NCBI RefSeq assembly: GCF_000185805.1 | Contig: NC_014926.1 | Location: forward strand, 1,420,501-1,484,500 | Length of the DNA: 64,000 nucleotides | Reading direction: 5' to 3' | Source of the DNA: Thermovibrio ammonificans HB-1 | Lineage (GTDB): Bacteria; Aquificota; Aquificia; Desulfurobacteriales; Desulfurobacteriaceae | Part shown: positions 30,697 through 40,226 of the stretch, piece after piece | Layout: each line of letters opens with the position of its first letter | How positions within the stretch are numbered: the stretch's first letter is position 1 | The notes under the pieces: model-generated | Databases searched by the model: none | What the model was told of the DNA's origin: nothing | The model's input: the letters and a program-made list of their open reading frames with translations, nothing else | Program-made: the position numbers and the translations under genes

Positions 30697-30725
30697 AAGA
30701 AAAGGGAAGGGAGAACCCCTCCCTT
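30695..30725 (-). terminator. nuo operon terminator
   Basis: On the minus strand a 7-bp stem (AAGGGAG / CTCCCTT) with a 5-nt loop begins in the nuoN stop codon and is followed by CCCTTTTCTTT. It fits an intrinsic terminator. The T-rich tail runs into the -10 of the next operon. Confidence 0.6.
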
Positions 30726-32139
30726 AGAAGCCGACCTTAGCGGCGTAAACGGCAGAAGCGTTGAGAACCGGCGTAAGCCAAATACCGAGAACGATGAGAA
30801 GAACGGCCATTACCGCAAGGGGAATCAGAACGAAGTTCTTCTTCGGAGAGTCGTTTATAGGCTTATCTAACGTAGGCTCCTCAAGGTACATCTGCTTGGC
30901 TATCCAGATGTAGTAAGCCACAGAGAAGGCACTGTTCAGCAGACCGATAAGGGCAAGCCAGGTCATTCCGGCATCAACGGCGGCAGTGAAAACGAAAACC
31001 TTACTGATAAAACCGGCCATCGGAGGAACACCGGCCAAAGAGAGCAGGAATATGAGGAACAGGGCCGCAAGGAGGGGTTCCCTCCTACCGAGCCCCTTGT
31101 AGTCGTCCATAGTCCTTGCTCCCCAGATAAAGAGGAAAACGGCGAAACAGAGGAACGCGGCAGTTTTCATAAACACGTAGGCAACAGAGTGGTAGAGGAT
31201 ACCGGTAACGCTAACGGGAACAGAAAGGGCTGCAAAGGCAACAAGGGTGTAACCGGCGTGGGCAACCGAAGAGAAGGCCAGAATCCTCGAAACCCTCTTC
31301 TGGGCAAGCGCAAGGAGGTTACCAACGGTCATGGTAACCGCGGCGATAACCGCAAGGATAAGGGTAAACTCCTTGGAGATAACGGGAATGGCCTCGTATA
31401 TAACCCTCATAAGCCCGATAAAGGCCGCACTCTTAGAGATACCCGTCAACAGGGCTGCAACGCCCGGGCAGGTGCCGTCGTAAACGTCCGGACCCCAGAA
31501 GTGGAACGGAAATGCGGTGAGCTTAAAGCCGAAACCGGCAAATATGAACACGGCGGCAAGGGCAACAAGGGGGTCCTTAAAGAGGTTCTTGGCAAGGGCA
31601 GCAAACTCAAAGCTCCCGGTCATTCCGTAGAGGAGGGATATACCGAACAGCATAAACCCGACGGCAAGGGCGCCGTTGAAGAAGTACTTAACACCCGCCT
31701 CTAAGGAGGTGTCGTCGAAGGCAAACAGAACCATAAGGTAAGTGGGCATAGTCATAAGTTCCATCGCAATAATAAGGGAGACGAAGTTCTCGGCCGAGAT
31801 GAGCAAGAGGGCTCCGGCCGTGGAAATCATAAGGGCGCCTATCAGCTCGTTGACGAACTTGTCCTTTTCGGTAATCCAGTAGATGACCAGCATGGTCATC
31901 CAAGAGGCAACCAGAACCATTCCTCCTATCAGGCGGGAAACGTCGTCGGTTACGAAGAAGCTGTTGAGAATGGACCTACCCTGGTCCGAGATGATGACAA
32001 GGAAAAGGGATACCACGTAACCTATACTGGAGATAATGGCTCCGAGGATTCCGGATATCCTGAAGACCCTGTTGATAACCGGAAGGAACGCTCCGGTTAG
32101 AGCCAGAATCATTACTGCTGCTAAGAAGTTAATGTTCAC
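30724..32139 (-). CDS. nuoN: Complex I subunit NuoN
   Basis: A 471-residue antiporter-like membrane subunit of complex I with about fourteen membrane helices. ELMTMPTYLMVLFAFD carries the key Glu of helix 5, and YFFNGALAVGFMLFGISLLYG and PFHFWGPDVYDGTCPGVAALLTGISKSAAF carry the conserved Lys and His of the proton channel. It is the last gene of the operon, 10 nt after nuoM, and its stop lies in the terminator stem. Confidence 0.97.
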   Translation of the reverse strand: MNINFLAAVMILALTGAFLPVINRVFRISGILGAIISSIGYVVSLFLVIISDQGRSILNSFFVTDDVSRLIGGMVLVASWMTMLVIYWITEKDKFVNELIGALMISTAGALLLISAENFVSLIIAMELMTMPTYLMVLFAFDDTSLEAGVKYFFNGALAVGFMLFGISLLYGMTGSFEFAALAKNLFKDPLVALAAVFIFAGFGFKLTAFPFHFWGPDVYDGTCPGVAALLTGISKSAAFIGLMRVIYEAIPVISKEFTLILAVIAAVTMTVGNLLALAQKRVSRILAFSSVAHAGYTLVAFAALSVPVSVTGILYHSVAYVFMKTAAFLCFAVFLFIWGARTMDDYKGLGRREPLLAALFLIFLLSLAGVPPMAGFISKVFVFTAAVDAGMTWLALIGLLNSAFSVAYYIWIAKQMYLEEPTLDKPINDSPKKNFVLIPLAVMAVLLIVLGIWLTPVLNASAVYAAKVGF

Positions 32140-32149
32140 CGGCTACCCC

Positions 32150-33601
32150 CTACTTAAAGAGTTGTGCAAACGTGTTAACTACAGGGTTATAGAGGTTAAA
32201 TACAACCGCCGGAATAACACCGACCAGTATGAAAGCTGCAATGTACATGGCAAGCGGGACGTTTTCTACGAGGGGAAGCTCCTTAAGACTCTTAAGGTTC
32301 TCAAACCCTTCCCTCAGCGGACCGAACACTGCCCTCTGGAGCATCCACATAAAGAACCCTGCACCGAGGGCACTCGCAAGGGGAACAATAATCATAATCC
32401 AGCCGTAGTAGTCAAAGGCGGCGAGCATTACGGTCAGCTCACCGACGAAACCGGCCGTTCCGGGAAGACCGACAGCTGCGAGAACCCCTATAACGAACAT
32501 CGTCATAAGGCCCGGTATCTTCTTCATAAGGCCGCCGAGCTCGGAGATGTACCAGGTGTGGGTTTTATGGTGAATGTAGCCTGCAATCATAAAGAGCAGA
32601 GAGATTATCAGGGCGTGTCCCACCATCTCGTAAATCGCTGCCGAAATCCCAGCGGCAGTTAAAGAGGCAAGCCCCAGAAGAACAAAGCCCATGTGGTTAA
32701 TTGAGGAATAGGCAACCATCCTCTTTATGTGGTCTTCGGCCAAAGCCCTGAAACCGGCGTAGAAGATGGTGAGAACGGCTATAAAGGCCATCAGCGGCGC
32801 AAAGAACTTACTGGTTTGAGGGAAGAGGAAGAGCTCCCACCTTAAAAGTCCGTAGGCACCCATTTTAAGGAGCAATCCTGCAAGGAATACGGAGATAGGA
32901 GAGGGTGCCTGAACGTGGGCATCGGGAAGCCAGGTGTGGAACGGAACAACAGGCATCTTTACAGCAAAGCCTATAAACATCAGAATCCAAACGAGCTTCG
33001 CAATCTCCGGCGAGAGGTGAACACCTACCAGTTTCTCAAACTCGAAAGTTCCGGTGGAAAGGTAGAGAACGATAATGCCCAGTAGGAGGAAAACGCTGGC
33101 CAAGTGGGTGTAGATAAAGAACTTCATTGCGGCGTAGATTCTGTTTTCGGCACCCCAAATACCGATGTGGAAGAACATCGGCACCAGGGTAAACTCCCAG
33201 AAGATAAAGAACCAGAGCAGGTTGAGAGAGGCGAAAACGCCCACCATCGGCCCAAGGAAGATGAGAACCAGGAAGAAGAAGGCGCCCGGCCTCTCTACGT
33301 GCCACGAAGAGAGGGTGACCGTAATGGCCAGGAAGGCCGTAATGGCGATTAAAACGAGAGAGATGCCGTCTACGGCCAAGTGCAGGTTAAAGTCAAACGG
33401 AGGGTATATCCTGTAGAACTCGTGGAAAGCGAAACCGTTACCGTTACCGGGATACTTAACAAGCAGGTAAGCCGTACAGAGTGCCAGAAAAGCTCCCACG
33501 GCAAGGGAGAGGTACTTGGGTAAATCCTTATGAAGCCGCTCTCCCAACCAGGCGAAAGGCGCCACCAGAACCGGGAGCAGTATCATACTCAGCAGAACCA
33601 T
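32150..33601 (-). CDS. nuoM: Complex I subunit NuoM
   Basis: A 483-residue antiporter-like subunit. FIFWEFTLVPMFFHIGIWG contains the helix-5 Glu, and KMPVVPFHTWLPDAHVQAPSPISVFLAGLLLKMGAYG is the classic NuoM proton-channel segment with Lys and His. It pumps protons as part of the membrane arm. It lies 11 nt after nuoL. Confidence 0.98.
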   Translation of the reverse strand: MVLLSMILLPVLVAPFAWLGERLHKDLPKYLSLAVGAFLALCTAYLLVKYPGNGNGFAFHEFYRIYPPFDFNLHLAVDGISLVLIAITAFLAITVTLSSWHVERPGAFFFLVLIFLGPMVGVFASLNLLWFFIFWEFTLVPMFFHIGIWGAENRIYAAMKFFIYTHLASVFLLLGIIVLYLSTGTFEFEKLVGVHLSPEIAKLVWILMFIGFAVKMPVVPFHTWLPDAHVQAPSPISVFLAGLLLKMGAYGLLRWELFLFPQTSKFFAPLMAFIAVLTIFYAGFRALAEDHIKRMVAYSSINHMGFVLLGLASLTAAGISAAIYEMVGHALIISLLFMIAGYIHHKTHTWYISELGGLMKKIPGLMTMFVIGVLAAVGLPGTAGFVGELTVMLAAFDYYGWIMIIVPLASALGAGFFMWMLQRAVFGPLREGFENLKSLKELPLVENVPLAMYIAAFILVGVIPAVVFNLYNPVVNTFAQLFK

Positions 33602-33612
33602 CTACTCCTCCT

Positions 33613-35442
33613 CTACACAAAGAGAATGATAAGAACTATGGCTATAACACCTGCAACGAAGTAGGTAAGGTAGTCTATAACGTCGCCGGTTTGTATCTTC
33701 CTGCACCTATCCCAGCAGGCAAGGGAGAGTTTCGCCGTTCCGTTAACGGCACCGTCTACAACGTGGATGTCTACCCACTCTACGGCCTTGGCTATAGAGC
33801 CGTAGAAGACGCTCCTGCAAATCCACTTAATTGCGGCATCTACGTACCAGCCGTTGTAGAGGAATTCGTTTATCCCCTTACCGAGGGGGTGGGCAAGGAA
33901 CTTGGCCGTAGAGATAACCCGCTTGTAGTAGATGAGGAAGACGATTCCGAAGAGCACAAACATCACCGTGAGAGTGGCAACGAGCAGGTCGAGGTAGAAA
34001 GGCTCGTGAACCTCACCGAAGAGCCAGTGGATAATCTTCTCCTTGAAGAAGGGTATCGCTATCGTCATGAAGGCGAGAACGTAGAGGGGAACCAGCATTA
34101 CAGGGTAGGCTTCACGGGCGTGCTTAGAGTACTCGGAGGGCTCTCCGGTAAACACAACGAACCAGAGCCTAAAGCCGTAAGCTATACAGAGAACCGCCGC
34201 CACAAAGGTGAGTCCGAATATAACGGGGTTACCGTAGGCGTAGGTGGCGGCAAGTATCCAGTCCTTACTAAAGAAGCCGTTAAAGGGCGGAACACCCGCA
34301 AGGGCCAGGATACCTACCAGGAAGAGGAATGCCGTTTGGGGCATGTACTTCATAAGGCCACCAAGCTTAAAGGCGTCTTTCTGGTGGTGAGTCATATGGA
34401 TAACGGCACCTGCAGCAAGGAAGAGCAGTGCCTTGAAGATGGCGTGGTTCATAAGGTGGAAGATTCCCGCCGCGGCAGAGCCTACACCGAGGGCTACAAA
34501 CATGAGGGCAAGGTGTTCCATAGTGGAGAAGGCAAGTATTTTCTTAATCTCGGTGTGTGCAAGGGCACCGGTTGCGGCTATGAAGGCAGATATGGCACCG
34601 ATAAAGGCAACAACTATGAGGGCGTGGGAGTAGTCGAAGAAGGGGAACATCCTTGCCACAAGGTATACACCGGCGTTAACCATTGTAGCGGCGTGGATAA
34701 GGGCGGAAACCGTTGTAGGACCTTCCATGGCGTCGAGAAGCCACGGGAAGAGCGGAAACTGTGCAGACTTACCAACGGCTCCTATGAATATGAGTATGGA
34801 GATTAGGAGTCCGAGCTTCACGCTAAATGCCCCGGCAAGGGCAAGAGCGTTTAACTCCTGGAAGTTAATCGTTCCGAGCAGAACCCAGGCAACTATTATA
34901 CCGGCGAGCATGAAAACGTCGCCGAACCTGGTCATAACAAAGGCCTTAAGTGCAGCCTCGGCAGCGCTCTTCTTCCAGTACCAGTAGCCGATGAGGAGGT
35001 AGGAACAGAGTCCAACGCCTTCCCAGAAGATGTAAAGCCCCACAAGGTTACTAACGAAGACAAGCCCCACCATAGAGCCTATGAAGAAGAGCTTCTCAAA
35101 GTAGTACCTGTGGGGCGACTCATCCTCTTCCATGTAACCTTTGGAGAAGACGATATCCAGGAAGCCGATACCCGTAGCTATAAGGGCCATAATTATCGAG
35201 AGGTGGTCTACGAAAATCCCGAAGGGAACCTTAAACGAGCCGAACTGGAACCAGGTGAAGCGGTGAACTATGGGCTCCTCTCCCATGTTCAGCGCAATGT
35301 AGCAGGAGAGGATAAAGCCGAGCAGTCCGGTTGCCGCGGCAACCCAGAAGGAGTTCCAGCGCTCAGTAAACTTACCTACCAGAAAGGCCAGAATACTCCC
35401 GAGGAAGAAGATTCCTATGGTTAGGTATACAACCTTCTCCAT
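33613..35442 (-). CDS. nuoL: Complex I subunit NuoL
   Basis: A 609-residue distal antiporter-like subunit. YIFWEGVGLCSYLLIGYW has the conserved Glu, and GKSAQFPLFPWLLDAMEGPTTVSALIHAATMVNAG is a NuoL hallmark. The C-terminal extension supplies the lateral helix that braces the membrane arm. It begins 1 nt after nuoK ends and precedes nuoM. Confidence 0.98.
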   Translation of the reverse strand: MEKVVYLTIGIFFLGSILAFLVGKFTERWNSFWVAAATGLLGFILSCYIALNMGEEPIVHRFTWFQFGSFKVPFGIFVDHLSIIMALIATGIGFLDIVFSKGYMEEDESPHRYYFEKLFFIGSMVGLVFVSNLVGLYIFWEGVGLCSYLLIGYWYWKKSAAEAALKAFVMTRFGDVFMLAGIIVAWVLLGTINFQELNALALAGAFSVKLGLLISILIFIGAVGKSAQFPLFPWLLDAMEGPTTVSALIHAATMVNAGVYLVARMFPFFDYSHALIVVAFIGAISAFIAATGALAHTEIKKILAFSTMEHLALMFVALGVGSAAAGIFHLMNHAIFKALLFLAAGAVIHMTHHQKDAFKLGGLMKYMPQTAFLFLVGILALAGVPPFNGFFSKDWILAATYAYGNPVIFGLTFVAAVLCIAYGFRLWFVVFTGEPSEYSKHAREAYPVMLVPLYVLAFMTIAIPFFKEKIIHWLFGEVHEPFYLDLLVATLTVMFVLFGIVFLIYYKRVISTAKFLAHPLGKGINEFLYNGWYVDAAIKWICRSVFYGSIAKAVEWVDIHVVDGAVNGTAKLSLACWDRCRKIQTGDVIDYLTYFVAGVIAIVLIILFV

Positions 35443-35443
35443 C

Positions 35444-35752
35444 CTACCACCTCAGGTTCTTGATTTTTGATGGTATAACCTCGCCGAAGCGCTTGTAGAA
35501 AACGATAACTATGGCAAGACCGACAGCCGCTTCAAGTGCAGCAAGACCTATGGTGAAGAAGGTAAAAACCTCTCCGTCCAGGTTCCGCTGAGCGGAGAAA
35601 ATTACAAAGTTCAAGTTGGCGGCGTTGATAATCATCTCAACCGCAAAGAGCATCCTTATAACGGACTTCCTTGAGAGCAATCCGTAGACGCCTACGGCAA
35701 GGAGCGAGAAAGACAGAAACAGGTATGCGTGAACGTCGGCCTCCAAAAGCAT
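35444..35752 (-). CDS. nuoK: Complex I subunit NuoK
   Basis: A 102-residue protein with three membrane helices. The MLFAVEMIINAANLNFV and GLAALEAAVGLAIVIVFYKR segments carry the two conserved Glu residues that lie in the central proton pathway. It overlaps nuoJ by 1 bp. Confidence 0.96.
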   Translation of the reverse strand: MLLEADVHAYLFLSFSLLAVGVYGLLSRKSVIRMLFAVEMIINAANLNFVIFSAQRNLDGEVFTFFTIGLAALEAAVGLAIVIVFYKRFGEVIPSKIKNLRW

Positions 35753-36234
35753 TACTCAGCCTCCCTCTTCTTGGTGATAATGGCGTTGGCCATGTAGAGG
35801 ATTGCGGCAACTATGAAGCCCAGAACAATGGTAAAGAAGGAGTACTTCTCAACAAATACGGTTCCGAGAGCTTCCGTAGAGTAAACCTTAAACGGAAAGG
35901 TATCTATGGCACTCCAGAAGGAGAAGACAATCCCGATTATAAGAAGTATAAGGCTCAAAACTATCGCCTTTACGGCCTTTCCCGGAGGCTTCTTGTAGCT
36001 CTCTCCAATCATCATAATCGCAAAGAGGACCAAAATGGTTACACCGCCGGCGTAAACCGCCAGCTGGACGCCGCCGAGAACTGGCATGTTCAAACCGAAG
36101 TAGACCAAGGCTATTTCCGAAAGCAGAACAACGAAGGAAACGGCAGCCCAAAGAAGCGAGGAGGCCTCAAGGGCTATAATGGCCGAGAAGACTATAACCG
36201 CGTACACTATCCAGAAATAAACGTTCCCGCTCAT
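35752..36234 (-). CDS. nuoJ: Complex I subunit NuoJ
   Basis: A 160-residue protein with five membrane helices. SEIALVYFGLNMPVLGGVQLAVYAGGVTILVLFAIMMIGE includes the conserved helix-3 region (YAGGVTILVLFAIM) linking quinone chemistry to pumping. It overlaps nuoI by 4 nt and nuoK by 1. Confidence 0.96.
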   Translation of the reverse strand: MSGNVYFWIVYAVIVFSAIIALEASSLLWAAVSFVVLLSEIALVYFGLNMPVLGGVQLAVYAGGVTILVLFAIMMIGESYKKPPGKAVKAIVLSLILLIIGIVFSFWSAIDTFPFKVYSTEALGTVFVEKYSFFTIVLGFIVAAILYMANAIITKKREAE

Positions 36235-36809
36235 TTCTCTTCTCCCTCCTTCTCTTGCTTAGAGGGCTTGGCCTCGGGTTTGGCAGGAGGTTGAGGCTTT
36301 GCCTGAGCTTGAGCCTGCTGCTGCTTTTTCTTCAGGGCCTCCTGCTTCTTCTTCTCGAGAAGCTCCTCCATTTTCTTGGCCTTCTCTATGGCCTTCTCAA
36401 GGTCTTGAGCCTCAAAGGTGTATTTCGTCAAGTTGTCCCAAGTGCCCGGCTCTACAAACATACGGTACTCGTCTGTAAGCTTAATGGCCTTTTCGGGCTT
36501 CGTGGGGCACGCGTCCTCACAGAGGCCGCAGAACATACACTCGTTTGCGCGAACCCTCGGCACGGCCCTGGGCTTTTTAACACCCGTAGGAACCATATCT
36601 ATGCAGTTAACGGGGCAGGCCCTCGAACAGAGGGAGCAGCCGATACACAGCTCGGCCCTTATGATGTGCTTTCCGCGGTAGTGGAGCTCCCTCCTCACCC
36701 CCTTGTCCCACCATATCTCGGTGGCCTTGGGGGCGAAAACGGCCTTGGTAACCCTAATCACCTTCTTCGTAGCTTCAACCGGTAAGAGCAAAGCCTCCTT
36801 CAGCTCCAT
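36231..36809 (-). CDS. nuoI: Complex I iron-sulfur subunit NuoI
   Basis: A 192-residue ferredoxin-like subunit. Two [4Fe-4S] motifs are present: CIGCSLCSRACPVNCI and CMFCGLCEDACP, which hold clusters N6a and N6b and pass electrons to NuoB. The C-terminus has an unusual Lys/Gln/Pro-rich tail (about residues 146-192). Without NuoEFG encoded nearby, this subunit may accept electrons from a different donor. It sits 11 nt after nuoH. Confidence 0.97.
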   Translation of the reverse strand: MELKEALLLPVEATKKVIRVTKAVFAPKATEIWWDKGVRRELHYRGKHIIRAELCIGCSLCSRACPVNCIDMVPTGVKKPRAVPRVRANECMFCGLCEDACPTKPEKAIKLTDEYRMFVEPGTWDNLTKYTFEAQDLEKAIEKAKKMEELLEKKKQEALKKKQQQAQAQAKPQPPAKPEAKPSKQEKEGEEK

Positions 36810-36820
36810 TTTCCTCTCCT

Positions 36821-37765
36821 TTAAGCGATGAACATCTTAATGAGAATTACAAACGCAAGGTTCAGAAGGGCAAGAGGCGTAAGCACCTTCCAGCAGAACC
36901 TGAGAAGCTGGTCCATCCTTATACGGGGAGTAGAGGCCCTTACCACAAAGGTGAAGAAGTAAAGGGCTGCAACCTTTATGAAGAACCAGACAACTCCAGG
37001 CAGAATCGGCCCTTTAAAGCCGCCGAGGAAGAGAACCACGGCAACGGAGTAAAGGGCAAAAAGCTCCACCAGCTTGGAGAGAACCAAAATGGCGTAGTTA
37101 AAGCCGCCGAACTCTGTGAGGAATCCGTAAACGATTTCCTGTTCGGCCTCGGGTATATCAAAGGGAGGCCTATCGGTAACTATAAGGGTGGCGGTTATGA
37201 AGATGAGGAAAGCAGGCAGAAGAACGAAGAAGCTGACTATAGAGCTCTTCTGGATAATCTCCAGGTGATTGAGAGTTCCGTAGAAAACAGCAGCGGCAAG
37301 GGCAGAGAGCCAGAGGGGAATCTCCCCGGAAATCATTTGGTTTACAACCCTCAAGCCGCCGATAAAGGAGTACTTACTCTTTGAAGCCCAACCTGCGTAG
37401 AAGAAGACAGGAGGCATACCGGTAACGAGTGCAAGAATTAAGAGGAGGTCGAAGCTGGTGCTCACTATGTAGCTGTGGGCCGAGAAGGGAATAAAGGCGA
37501 TGAGAATCGCAACCATAAGGAAGGCCACAAAGGGGATGAGCGAAAAGAGGAGCTTATTGGCCCTCTTCTGGATTATGAACTCCTTCTGAAGGAGTTTGAA
37601 AACGTCGGCAGTTGTCTGAAGCAGTCCCCACTTACCTACATAGTAGGGGCCCGTTCTCAGGTGAACATCTGCCAGAATCTTACGCTCCAGGTAGAATATC
37701 ATCAGAAACACAACCAGCAGGAAGACAAATCCCGGAAAGAATATCGCTCTCAGCCAGGCTTCCAT
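36821..37765 (-). CDS. nuoH: Complex I subunit NuoH
   Basis: A 314-residue membrane subunit linking the quinone site to the membrane arm. YLERKILADVHLRTGPYYVGKWGLLQTTADVFKLLQKE has the conserved Arg and Glu cluster at the quinone channel mouth, and DRPPFDIPEAEQEIVYGFLTEFGG is the characteristic acidic loop. It lies 9 nt after nuoD. Confidence 0.97.
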   Translation of the reverse strand: MEAWLRAIFFPGFVFLLVVFLMIFYLERKILADVHLRTGPYYVGKWGLLQTTADVFKLLQKEFIIQKRANKLLFSLIPFVAFLMVAILIAFIPFSAHSYIVSTSFDLLLILALVTGMPPVFFYAGWASKSKYSFIGGLRVVNQMISGEIPLWLSALAAAVFYGTLNHLEIIQKSSIVSFFVLLPAFLIFITATLIVTDRPPFDIPEAEQEIVYGFLTEFGGFNYAILVLSKLVELFALYSVAVVLFLGGFKGPILPGVVWFFIKVAALYFFTFVVRASTPRIRMDQLLRFCWKVLTPLALLNLAFVILIKMFIA

Positions 37766-37774
37766 ACTCTCCTC

Positions 37775-38944
37775 CTACCTGTCTATGTCGCCGTGACATA
37801 TGTAGAGTGAGGCAAATATGACGGGAACGTCGGCGAGCTTCACGTTCTTCATCATCTCCGGCATTGCCCACAGGTTTGCAAAAGAAGGAGCCCTCATCTT
37901 GAGCCTGTAAGGCCCGGTTCCTCCATCGCTTATAAGGTGGAAGCCGAAGCACCCGCGGGCCCACTCAACGTTAACGTAGGCCTCTCCTGCGGGCACCTTA
38001 ACGGGGAACTTCGTTCTATACTCACCTTCGGGAAAACCTTCTATGGCCTGCCTGATTATCTTGGCAGACTCTATAAGCTCTTCCCAGATAACCAGGTAGC
38101 GGGCGTAACAGTCACCCTCCTCCTTTGTTACCACTTTAAAGTCGAGCTCGCCGTAAGCGGCGTAGGGGTAGTCCTTCCGTATGTCGGACGGAATGCCCGA
38201 AGCCCTGAGGGCCGGACCGGCAAGGCCGAGCTCAACTGCCTTTTCACGGGGAACAACCCCTACCCCCTGGGAGCGGATTTTCAGGGTCGGGTTGTCTATG
38301 AAGACCTCGCCGAAGCGAGGGATAAACTCCTTCTCGAGGAAATCAACGGCGGTAATCATCTTCTCTATAAACTTGCCGGTAGGCTCGTACCTAACCCCTC
38401 CGGGAACAATCGAGGAGGTGGCTATCCTCTGACCGGCGTAAACCTCGAAGGCGTCGAGGAACTTCTCACGGGCTATAAGGGCCCACTGCATAGGGGTGTG
38501 AACGCCGAGCACCCCTATAAAGCTGCCCAAGCCTATAAGGTGGCTCACTATCCTTCCGCCTTCACACAGTATCGTCCTTACGTAGTCGGCCTTCTTTGGA
38601 ACCTCTACGCCGGCAATTTTCTCGGCGGCTATCGAGTAGCCGGTCATGGTGCCGAAGTTGTCTATAAAACAGGCCCTCTCTACGTTAACGATGGCGTTTA
38701 TCCAGGTTCTATACTCAACGAGCTTCTCAAGGAGCCTCAGAACGTAACCGATATCCGGGTCAACCTTTACAACCTCGTCTCCGTCGACCCAAACCTTTAA
38801 ACGCATGGGGCCCGAAGCCGGGTGCTGAACACCCCAGTTAAGCTGAAGCAGTTTCTCCTGCAAAAGCCCCAGGTCTTCCCCGGAAACTTCCACCTGCTCT
38901 TCTACAACGAAGGTGTAACCTGCCTGGGTGATGCTGTTTCCCAT
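37775..38944 (-). CDS. nuoD: Complex I 49-kDa-type subunit NuoD, atypical quinone site
   Basis: A 389-residue subunit that with NuoB forms the quinone-binding cavity. Most of the family is conserved (ARGVGVVP-type segment, LRASGIPSDIRKDYPY, YVNVEWARG, ISDGGTGPYRLKMRAPSF). However, the loop that usually reads QHP-x-x-HG-x-x-R reads QHPASGPMR (residues 40-48) with no second His, and the usual Tyr of RTYLQ is Trp81 (RTWIN). The C-terminal segment is SLYICHGDIDR rather than SLDPVMGDVDR. These changes suggest altered acceptor chemistry. It abuts nuoC by 1 bp. Confidence 0.95.
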   Translation of the reverse strand: MGNSITQAGYTFVVEEQVEVSGEDLGLLQEKLLQLNWGVQHPASGPMRLKVWVDGDEVVKVDPDIGYVLRLLEKLVEYRTWINAIVNVERACFIDNFGTMTGYSIAAEKIAGVEVPKKADYVRTILCEGGRIVSHLIGLGSFIGVLGVHTPMQWALIAREKFLDAFEVYAGQRIATSSIVPGGVRYEPTGKFIEKMITAVDFLEKEFIPRFGEVFIDNPTLKIRSQGVGVVPREKAVELGLAGPALRASGIPSDIRKDYPYAAYGELDFKVVTKEEGDCYARYLVIWEELIESAKIIRQAIEGFPEGEYRTKFPVKVPAGEAYVNVEWARGCFGFHLISDGGTGPYRLKMRAPSFANLWAMPEMMKNVKLADVPVIFASLYICHGDIDR

Positions 38945-39411
38945 TACTTCTTCCCCTTAGTTGGCTTTCTGTGCTTTTTGAAGTCGTAAGACTTCCTGAG
39001 AGGGAACCACCCTTCCGCCCACTCGGGCAACAGCATAACCTCGAGTCTGGGATTGCCTATGAAGTCAACGCCGAACATCTCCCAAGCCTCACGCTCGTGA
39101 GGCTGCAGGGGCGGGAATATGTCGCAAACGCTGGGAACGGAGAGGTCGTCTGCCGGAAGCTCCACTCTGACCATAACGAACTTCTTCTTTACAAGGTCCT
39201 CAAGGATGTAGTTAACCTGGTACCCCTGCCCTTTAGGGGTGTAGTCAACAACGGATACGGTATGGGGGTAGTTAAAGCCTTCCTTCTTCAGGAACTTCAT
39301 CAGGTCTCTGAGCTTGTCCCTGTCGGCCTTAACCAGCAGAAAGTTTGTATCGTAGGGCTCACACTCAAAGCCGAACTGCTGTTCAAGCTTGGCCTTTACC
39401 TCTTCCAGCAT
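38944..39411 (-). CDS. nuoC: Complex I 30-kDa-type subunit NuoC
   Basis: A 155-residue soluble subunit. The C-terminal signature is complete (PSVCDIFPPLQPHEREAWEMFGVDFIGNPRL and LRKSYDFKKH), and the N-terminal half is the short form. NuoC braces NuoD and NuoI. It is separate from NuoD, unlike the NuoCD fusion of enteric bacteria. It ends overlapping nuoD by 1 bp. Confidence 0.96.
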   Translation of the reverse strand: MLEEVKAKLEQQFGFECEPYDTNFLLVKADRDKLRDLMKFLKKEGFNYPHTVSVVDYTPKGQGYQVNYILEDLVKKKFVMVRVELPADDLSVPSVCDIFPPLQPHEREAWEMFGVDFIGNPRLEVMLLPEWAEGWFPLRKSYDFKKHRKPTKGKK

Positions 39412-39423
39412 CTCTCTCTCCAG

Positions 39424-39894
39424 TTAGTAGGGTATCTCTTCCATCCTGTTGGGATACTTCTTGGCGGCGTTCTCCCTATCCCTGAGGATTATCTCCTTGA
39501 GCCTCAGGAACCCTTCAAGGGTGGCTTCCGGGTTTGGCGGACAGCCTGCAACGAAAACGTCAAAGGGTATGTACTGGGAGACGTCTACCGCCACGAAGTC
39601 GGAATCCCAGTAGGGTCCGCCGCCAGCGGCACAAGCCCCCATACCGAAAACGTAACGGGGTTCGGGCATCTGCTGGTAAACTCTGAGGAGAACCGGCAGA
39701 ACCTTACGGGAAACGAGGCCCGTAACTATGATGAAGTCTGCCTGCCTCGGGCTCGGAGTCATCATGAAGCCGTAACGCTCCCAGTCGAACCTGGGCCCCA
39801 TAAGGGCAAGCACCTCGAGGGAGCAGCAGCCGCTACAGAAGTGAACTCCCCAGGGTGAGTTTGCCCTGCTCCAGTCGAAGAACTTGAGAATCAT
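39424..39894 (-). CDS. nuoB: Complex I subunit NuoB (N2 cluster)
   Basis: A 156-residue subunit holding the terminal [4Fe-4S] cluster N2. Ligands are in FCSGCCSLEVLAL (the Cys pair), FGMGACAAGGGPY and FVAGCPPNPE. It passes electrons to the quinone at the NuoB/NuoD interface. It overlaps nuoA by 4 nt. Confidence 0.96.
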   Translation of the reverse strand: MILKFFDWSRANSPWGVHFCSGCCSLEVLALMGPRFDWERYGFMMTPSPRQADFIIVTGLVSRKVLPVLLRVYQQMPEPRYVFGMGACAAGGGPYWDSDFVAVDVSQYIPFDVFVAGCPPNPEATLEGFLRLKEIILRDRENAAKKYPNRMEEIPY

Positions 39895-40226
39895 CTTCTG
39901 TTTCCTCCAACCATTATGTAGGAGAGGGGAATCATGAGGAGTAGCGAGAAGAGGATGAATATCCAGCCGAACTTAGGGTCGCCCTTACCTATGGAGTAGA
40001 GAACGAAGAAGACACCGGCTATATCCATGGCTATGAAGATGATGGCGTAGAAGTAGTACTGGAAGTTAACGCTGGCGATAATGGGCTCAGGTGCCGGCAG
40101 ACCACACTCGTAGGTGTCTTCCTTAACAGGGTGGGGGTCTCTCGGAGCAACGGCTACAGACAGGAGCCAGAGCGAAAGTCCCGCAAGGAACATAACTACT
40201 ACAAAAACGACGAAGTTGTAGAGCAT
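39891..40226 (-). CDS. nuoA: Complex I subunit NuoA
   Basis: A 111-residue membrane subunit with three helices. EDTYECGLPA is the hallmark loop with the conserved Cys near the quinone site, and FYAIIFIAMDIAGVFFVLYSIG includes the conserved Asp. First gene of the nuo operon, with GGAGAGGAGAG just upstream. Confidence 0.96.
   Translation of the reverse strand: MLYNFVVFVVVMFLAGLSLWLLSVAVAPRDPHPVKEDTYECGLPAPEPIIASVNFQYYFYAIIFIAMDIAGVFFVLYSIGKGDPKFGWIFILFSLLLMIPLSYIMVGGNRR

Follow-up and report, generated by a model that had tools for sequence, protein, structure and literature searches.

A complex I-like operon of Thermovibrio ammonificans whose catalytic subunit lacks the quinone-binding residues and resembles MBS at its active site

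The window, the whole stretch of DNA analysed here, comprises 64,000 nt of the genome of Thermovibrio ammonificans HB-1. It contains an operon that runs from position 40226 down to 30724 and consists of the genes nuoA, nuoB, nuoC, nuoD, nuoH, nuoI, nuoJ, nuoK, nuoL, nuoM and nuoN, which encode all 11 core subunits of complex I (Table 1). The genes nuoE, nuoF and nuoG, encoding the NADH module, are missing from the operon. Judged by gene content, it is Theam_1488-1498, the second cluster of T. ammonificans, which has been termed a duplicated NADH dehydrogenase without nuoEFG (PMC5441870).

Table 1. Genes of the operon and active-site features of NuoB and NuoD, with their positions in the window.
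Feature	Position	Strand	Description
NuoA-like	39891..40226	-	111 aa
NuoB-like	39424..39894	-	156 aa; C20-S-G-C23-C24, C88, C118
NuoB CSGCC codons	39823..39837	-	MBS-type CxxC and complex-I-type CC
NuoC-like	38944..39411	-	155 aa
NuoD-like catalytic subunit	37775..38944	-	389 aa
NuoD beta1-beta2 loop	38801..38827	-	Shortened, QHPAS-GPMR (Q40-R48 = QHPASGPMR)
NuoD W81 codon	38702-38704	-
NuoD C92-F-I-D95	38660..38671	-	N-terminal hydrogenase CxxC; first Cys retained, second is Asp
NuoD Y381-I-C383-H-G-D386	37787..37804	-	C-terminal hydrogenase CxxC; first Cys retained, second is Asp
NuoH-like	36821..37765	-	314 aa; coupling loop PFDIPEAEQEIVYGFLTE
NuoI-like	36231..36809	-	192 aa; two [4Fe-4S] motifs, probable entry point of ferredoxin
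NuoJ-like	35752..36234	-	160 aa
NuoK-like	35444..35752	-	102 aa
NuoL-like antiporter subunit	33613..35442	-	609 aa; E141, K225, K393 retained
NuoM-like antiporter subunit	32150..33601	-	483 aa; above the curated NuoM cut-off
NuoN-like antiporter subunit	30724..32139	-	471 aa; K206, K236, K380 retained

The product of nuoD was compared with Nqo4 of T. thermophilus by alignment. The loop between beta1 and beta2 is one residue shorter in the window protein, and the column of His38 is a gap. W81 occupies the position of Tyr87, V145 that of Asp139, and the C-terminal SLD is replaced by SLY381. The whole triad of Nqo4 (His38, Tyr87, Asp139) is thus without equivalents. An earlier note on this DNA had pointed to the loop without a second histidine, to the tryptophan in place of the quinone tyrosine and to a C-terminal SLYICHGDIDR instead of the SLDP-type segment; all three were found as described, and its view that the quinone head-group residues are absent is supported. 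The loss of Asp139 was overlooked there, as were the cysteines C92 and C383 and the CxxCC motif of NuoB. At the four NiFe-ligand positions the window protein has Cys, Asp, Cys and Asp (C92, D95, C383 and D386). Since the second cysteine of both pairs is an aspartate, no NiFe site is expected in this subunit.

Residues were counted over 98 homologues, among them 54 NuoD proteins of complex I type and 23 distinct sequences from the Aquificota members of the window clade. His38, an acidic residue (D/E) at position 139 and the aspartate of SLD are present in 54 of 54 complex-I-type proteins. The window clade has a gap at His38, and its Aquificota members have V, A or I at position 139 and Tyr in SLD. 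CxxD is found at both hydrogenase CxxC sites in 23/23 Aquificota sequences of the clade; no cysteine occurs at NiFe positions 1 or 3 in any of the 54 complex-I-type proteins. The same states in 23 distinct sequences exclude a sequencing error. Position 87 was dropped as a diagnostic mark, as tryptophan is also present in four of the 54 complex-I-type proteins and the Campylobacterota members of the clade have Phe. No conserved replacement nearby for His38 or Tyr87 was detected in the clade apart from position 381, which is invariably Tyr or His. An AlphaFold2 model of NuoD built from close homologues only reached a pLDDT of 48 and was set aside for geometry and fold search.

The NuoB-like protein has MbsJ of the P. 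furiosus MBS as its top PDB match, ahead of all complex I proteins. Its cluster loop reads FCSGCCSLE. In the alignment of NuoB homologues, complex I proteins have the tandem CC without the first cysteine, the sampled Mbx proteins have CxxCG (one of them without the first cysteine), and the hydrogenase loop is three residues longer. CxxCC, as CSGCC or CTGCC, was present in every NuoB examined from the window clade and in no other aligned sequence. MbsJ has CTGCG, a loop in which one iron of the cluster has no Cys ligand, so that the clade differs from MBS by an additional cysteine at the MBS glycine, and its loop is not of the MBS type. The terminal cluster of NuoB may be fully ligated by cysteines, with C24 restoring the tandem CC, in contrast to the open-iron cluster of MBS.

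Among the other subunits, NuoL and NuoM score above the curated cut-offs of their subfamilies and NuoN slightly under (328.9 vs 332.6). NuoA, NuoC, NuoI and NuoJ are well under theirs, which is expected from deep divergence. The conserved Lys and Glu residues are intact in the antiporter subunits checked. The chamber-forming loop of NuoH is near that of complex I, but has QEI as in several hydrogenases. The DxE motif of NuoA is altered in comparison with complex I.

The complex shares features with three known systems. Like the window NuoD, MbsL of P. furiosus has no His38, Trp at position 87, no Asp139 and cysteines at hydrogenase positions 1 and 3; C85 and C385 of MbsL correspond to C92 and C383. 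MBS/Mbx (P. furiosus, PDB 6u8y) also has a short CxxC loop in the NuoB homologue and no NADH module. The paper on the MBS structure notes the absence of the His38 and Tyr87 equivalents and the remaining C85 and C385, states that MBS reduces polysulfide, assigns catalysis to an open-iron cluster and finds C85 and C385 dispensable (PMC7684303). In contrast to MBS/Mbx, the window operon has the order nuoABCDHIJKLMN and encodes a membrane arm of complex I type (NuoA, J, K, L, M and N), not an Mbx-type or Mrp-like one. The residue three positions after the first NuoD cysteine is Asp in the window clade and Glu in the sampled Mbx proteins, from which the window NuoD is also set apart by a clade of its own. 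With complex I and the 11-subunit NuoABCDHIJKLMN complexes the operon shares the 11 core subunits, their order, the antiporter Lys and Glu residues and the tandem cysteines of NuoB; it differs from complex I in lacking the quinone triad, in possessing two hydrogenase cysteines and in the changed NuoA DxE and NuoH loop. Group 4 [NiFe] hydrogenases (Mbh, Ech, Hyc) have homologous B, D and H subunits and the first cysteine of each CxxC, whereas in the window NuoD the second cysteine of each pair is Asp and the protein falls into a separate clade.

Phylogenetic trees were calculated from a sample with 51 rows of complex I NuoD and without archaeal Fpo and Nuo. In the NuoD tree, complex I forms one clade that excludes the window group (support 100/99), and this clade still has a support of 97 after removal of the active-site columns. 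The NuoB and NuoH trees likewise place the window group outside the complex I clade, and the concatenated B, D and H alignment including the Campylobacterota rows gives that clade a support of 100. The sister group differs between data sets: the window clade joins Mbx in the NuoD tree (98/83) and complex I in the concatenated tree (97), and AU tests rejected neither. It is well supported, and in our view highly probable, that the window clade stands apart as a lineage of its own, whose active site is a hybrid of MBS and complex I. The missing quinone residues reported in the earlier note stand, but not as those of an altered NuoD in an ordinary complex I: the lineage is separate, and the genome has a canonical complex I at another locus.

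This canonical complex is encoded by a nuoABCDEFG-HIJKLMN operon (locus L016), has 14 subunits and possesses QHPSTHG, the Tyr and SLDP. A third member of the superfamily in T. ammonificans is a group 4, Ech-type hydrogenase (L017). A gene for a CRP-like cyclic-nucleotide-binding protein lies inside the canonical nuo operon (L016 14308-14784), and a similar gene adjoins the hydrogenase operon (L017 14212-14700).

The window-type NuoD was found in 17 of the 22 Desulfurobacteriaceae genomes searched, with 83-95% identity in those other than T. ammonificans. One genus of this family (g4) is without the complex; in one of its genomes (G126, L084), the nuo operon contains an additional NuoM-like gene (order ...K M L M N) and possibly encodes a '2M' complex I. 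In a second Aquificota family (f5), six of seven genomes encode the protein with 57-59% identity and the seventh has a fragment. In the two f5 loci that extend far enough, the window-type operon comes directly after the Ech operon. In 298 Campylobacterota genomes, the search yielded 11 strong matches, which belong to two families (f210 and f211) and have NuoC fused to NuoD; the assignment to this phylum came from a family model specific for it. Their NuoD sequences share 42-46% identity with the window type. HPAS-GP, RxCFMD, xxCQGDLDR, the NuoB CxxCC and Phe at position 87 are present in 10 of 10 Campylobacterota loci examined, and these Campylobacterota members have the gap at His38 and lack Asp139. 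Top scores in 255 genomes from other phyla were much lower; the matches that were checked turned out to be complex I, Mbx or hydrogenase. A genome-wide scan with the peptide patterns returned close relatives only. The motifs are invariant over two phyla, which agrees with the view of the earlier note that the gene is not decayed.

Some observations concern individual loci. In Desulfurobacterium thermolithotrophum, two near-identical frames of 435 aa (L083 7524-8831 and 1094-2401), one of which separates nuoB from nuoC in the window-type operon, look like a repeated insertion element. In one Campylobacterota genome (G652, L174 14572-15942), a flavoprotein gene resembling that of CoA-disulfide reductase starts 37 bases beyond the window-type operon, in the same orientation; the top PDB match of its product is coenzyme A disulfide reductase (5l1n). 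No such gene lies beside the operon in the loci L172, L177 and L178. One Campylobacterota locus is too few to count, and gene neighbours were rejected as evidence for sulfur metabolism.

The distribution of the NADH module bears on the electron donor. NuoF was found neither in any of the seven f5 genomes nor in one Desulfurobacteriaceae genome that carries the window-type complex (G121), and the C-terminal domain of NuoF was not found in seven f211 genomes. The type strain of D. thermolithotrophum (G123) has the window-type complex and Ech; canonical NuoD and NuoH were not found there. Its nuoE/F/G-like genes are located in a CO dehydrogenase operon (G123:C1:410000-422000, L183 4223-9466) together with CooS, a CooC-like protein and a 646-aa NuoF with an extra N-terminal domain. 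Owing to this location, they probably do not encode a complex I NADH module. Canonical nuoEFG genes lie beside a fumarase gene in two other genomes, G128 (C5:1-8000, L182) and G129 (C220, L184), in which canonical NuoD and NuoH are absent and the nuoABCD genes, found at that spot in T. ammonificans, are gone. In D. thermolithotrophum HR11, a nuoGFE operon and nuoABCDHIJKLMN have been merged into one menaquinol-oxidising NADH dehydrogenase, and no mbs is listed (PMC12724263). This assignment is doubtful at both ends if HR11 resembles the type strain. From the NuoEFG findings and the two [4Fe-4S] motifs of NuoI, we infer that reduced ferredoxin is the donor of the window complex.

We propose that the 11 subunits form an ion-pumping oxidoreductase that is fed by ferredoxin, represents a third lineage next to MBS/Mbx and complex I and reduces an acceptor other than a quinone; we assign this reading a probability of about 0.5. 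Reduced ferredoxin, supplied by Ech or by soluble hydrogenases in these H2-oxidising sulfur reducers, would feed the clusters of NuoI. The electrons would pass to the terminal cluster of NuoB (C23/C24/C88/C118), with C20 as an additional nearby thiol. The acceptor would be reduced in the chamber where NuoB, NuoD and NuoH meet and would not be a quinone; the most likely candidates are sulfane sulfur/polysulfide and a disulfide. Motions of the NuoD and NuoH loops would power the three pumps in the manner of complex I.

The least probable of the alternatives is a recent duplication of the canonical nuo cluster, after which the copy lost nuoEFG and drifted. This is the published reading of Theam_1488-1498 (PMC5441870). 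However, forcing the window proteins to join the canonical NuoB, NuoD and NuoH of the same genome was 77 log-units worse and was rejected under the model used (p-AU 2.7e-175), and motifs invariant over two phyla exclude drift. We regard this origin as very unlikely. It is improbable, to a lesser degree, that the 11 subunits belong to an ordinary NADH dehydrogenase linked to menaquinone, with NuoEFG borrowed from genes at another locus; this has been suggested for strain HR11 (PMC12724263). The two genomes that keep canonical nuoEFG without canonical NuoD and NuoH would fit such an arrangement. It is contradicted by the type strain, with its nuoE/F/G-like genes in the CO dehydrogenase operon and its extended NuoF, by the lack of NuoF in f5 and G121 and of its C-terminal domain in f211, all of which carry the window-type complex, and by an active site that is not of quinone type.

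A stronger competitor is a ferredoxin:menaquinone oxidoreductase that has another way of holding the head group of the quinone, perhaps with Tyr/His381 and the shortened loop, and that works forward or is reversed to produce reduced ferredoxin for CO2 fixation. The 11-subunit composition matches known NuoEFG-less complexes, the tandem cysteines of NuoB and the chamber loop of NuoH are close to complex I, and position 381 is invariably Tyr or His. A VitK2-biosynthesis domain was detected in 30 of the 33 genomes searched, so that the bacteria of the clade probably make menaquinone, and the argument from an absence of quinone was dropped. Against this reading, the triad is lost in every member of the clade, in contrast to the complex-I-type NuoD proteins, 54/54 of which have His38 and an acidic residue at position 139; two hydrogenase/MBS cysteines are retained, and the same genome retains a canonical quinone complex. 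The altered quinone type considered in the earlier note is rated less likely because the canonical complex, with its normal site, would meet the same quinone pool. The different acceptor, which the note also considered, gains from the MBS-like states of the NuoD active site. We thus consider the menaquinone-linked enzyme a possibility to be taken seriously and, as a working hypothesis drawn from the sequences, favour a non-quinone acceptor.

For the preferred non-quinone reading, sulfane sulfur or a disulfide is suggested by the physiology of the organisms. The named relatives are vent bacteria that oxidise hydrogen and reduce sulfur (PMC5441870, PMC12724263), and the acceptors of D. thermolithotrophum include S0, thiosulfate, sulfite and polysulfides, but not nitrate. 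Together with the MBS-like site and the Ech-adjacent operon of f5, this favours a sulfur or disulfide acceptor. Such an acceptor is made less certain by the tandem cysteines of NuoB, the dispensability of C85 and C385 in MBS, the probable presence of menaquinone, the genus g4 without the complex, and Tyr/His381, which might take over as proton donor to a quinone. Nautilia species, moreover, encode PsrABC for polysulfide. The generalisation that sulfur-only respirers have only the window-type complex fits Desulfurobacterium; it was not used as proof, since Nautilia also uses nitrate.

MBH, MBS and complex I are regarded as evolutionary steps of respiration, connected by the loss of four NiFe cysteines. 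The window clade could be a surviving link from sulfur reduction of the MBS type to complex I, in which a ferredoxin-fed, complete complex I pump with three antiporters, reducing sulfane sulfur or a disulfide, predates quinone binding; we put this forward as a speculative scenario. If it is true, the CxxCC of NuoB would be a record of the step from the MBS CxxC to the CC of complex I. None of the papers found describes a complex that combines the architecture of complex I with a catalytic site like that of MBS and a hybrid cluster motif. The energy schemes for Thermovibrio, Desulfurobacterium and Nautilia, in which the operon is treated as a complete or partial quinone-linked NADH dehydrogenase, are affected, and assignments as menaquinone-linked NADH dehydrogenase merit re-examination. 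The window-type complex is a candidate for the unexplained sulfur-reduction step in Desulfurobacterium. T. ammonificans unites a group 4 hydrogenase, the window complex and a canonical complex I in one cultured genome, in which the change of acceptor can be tested.
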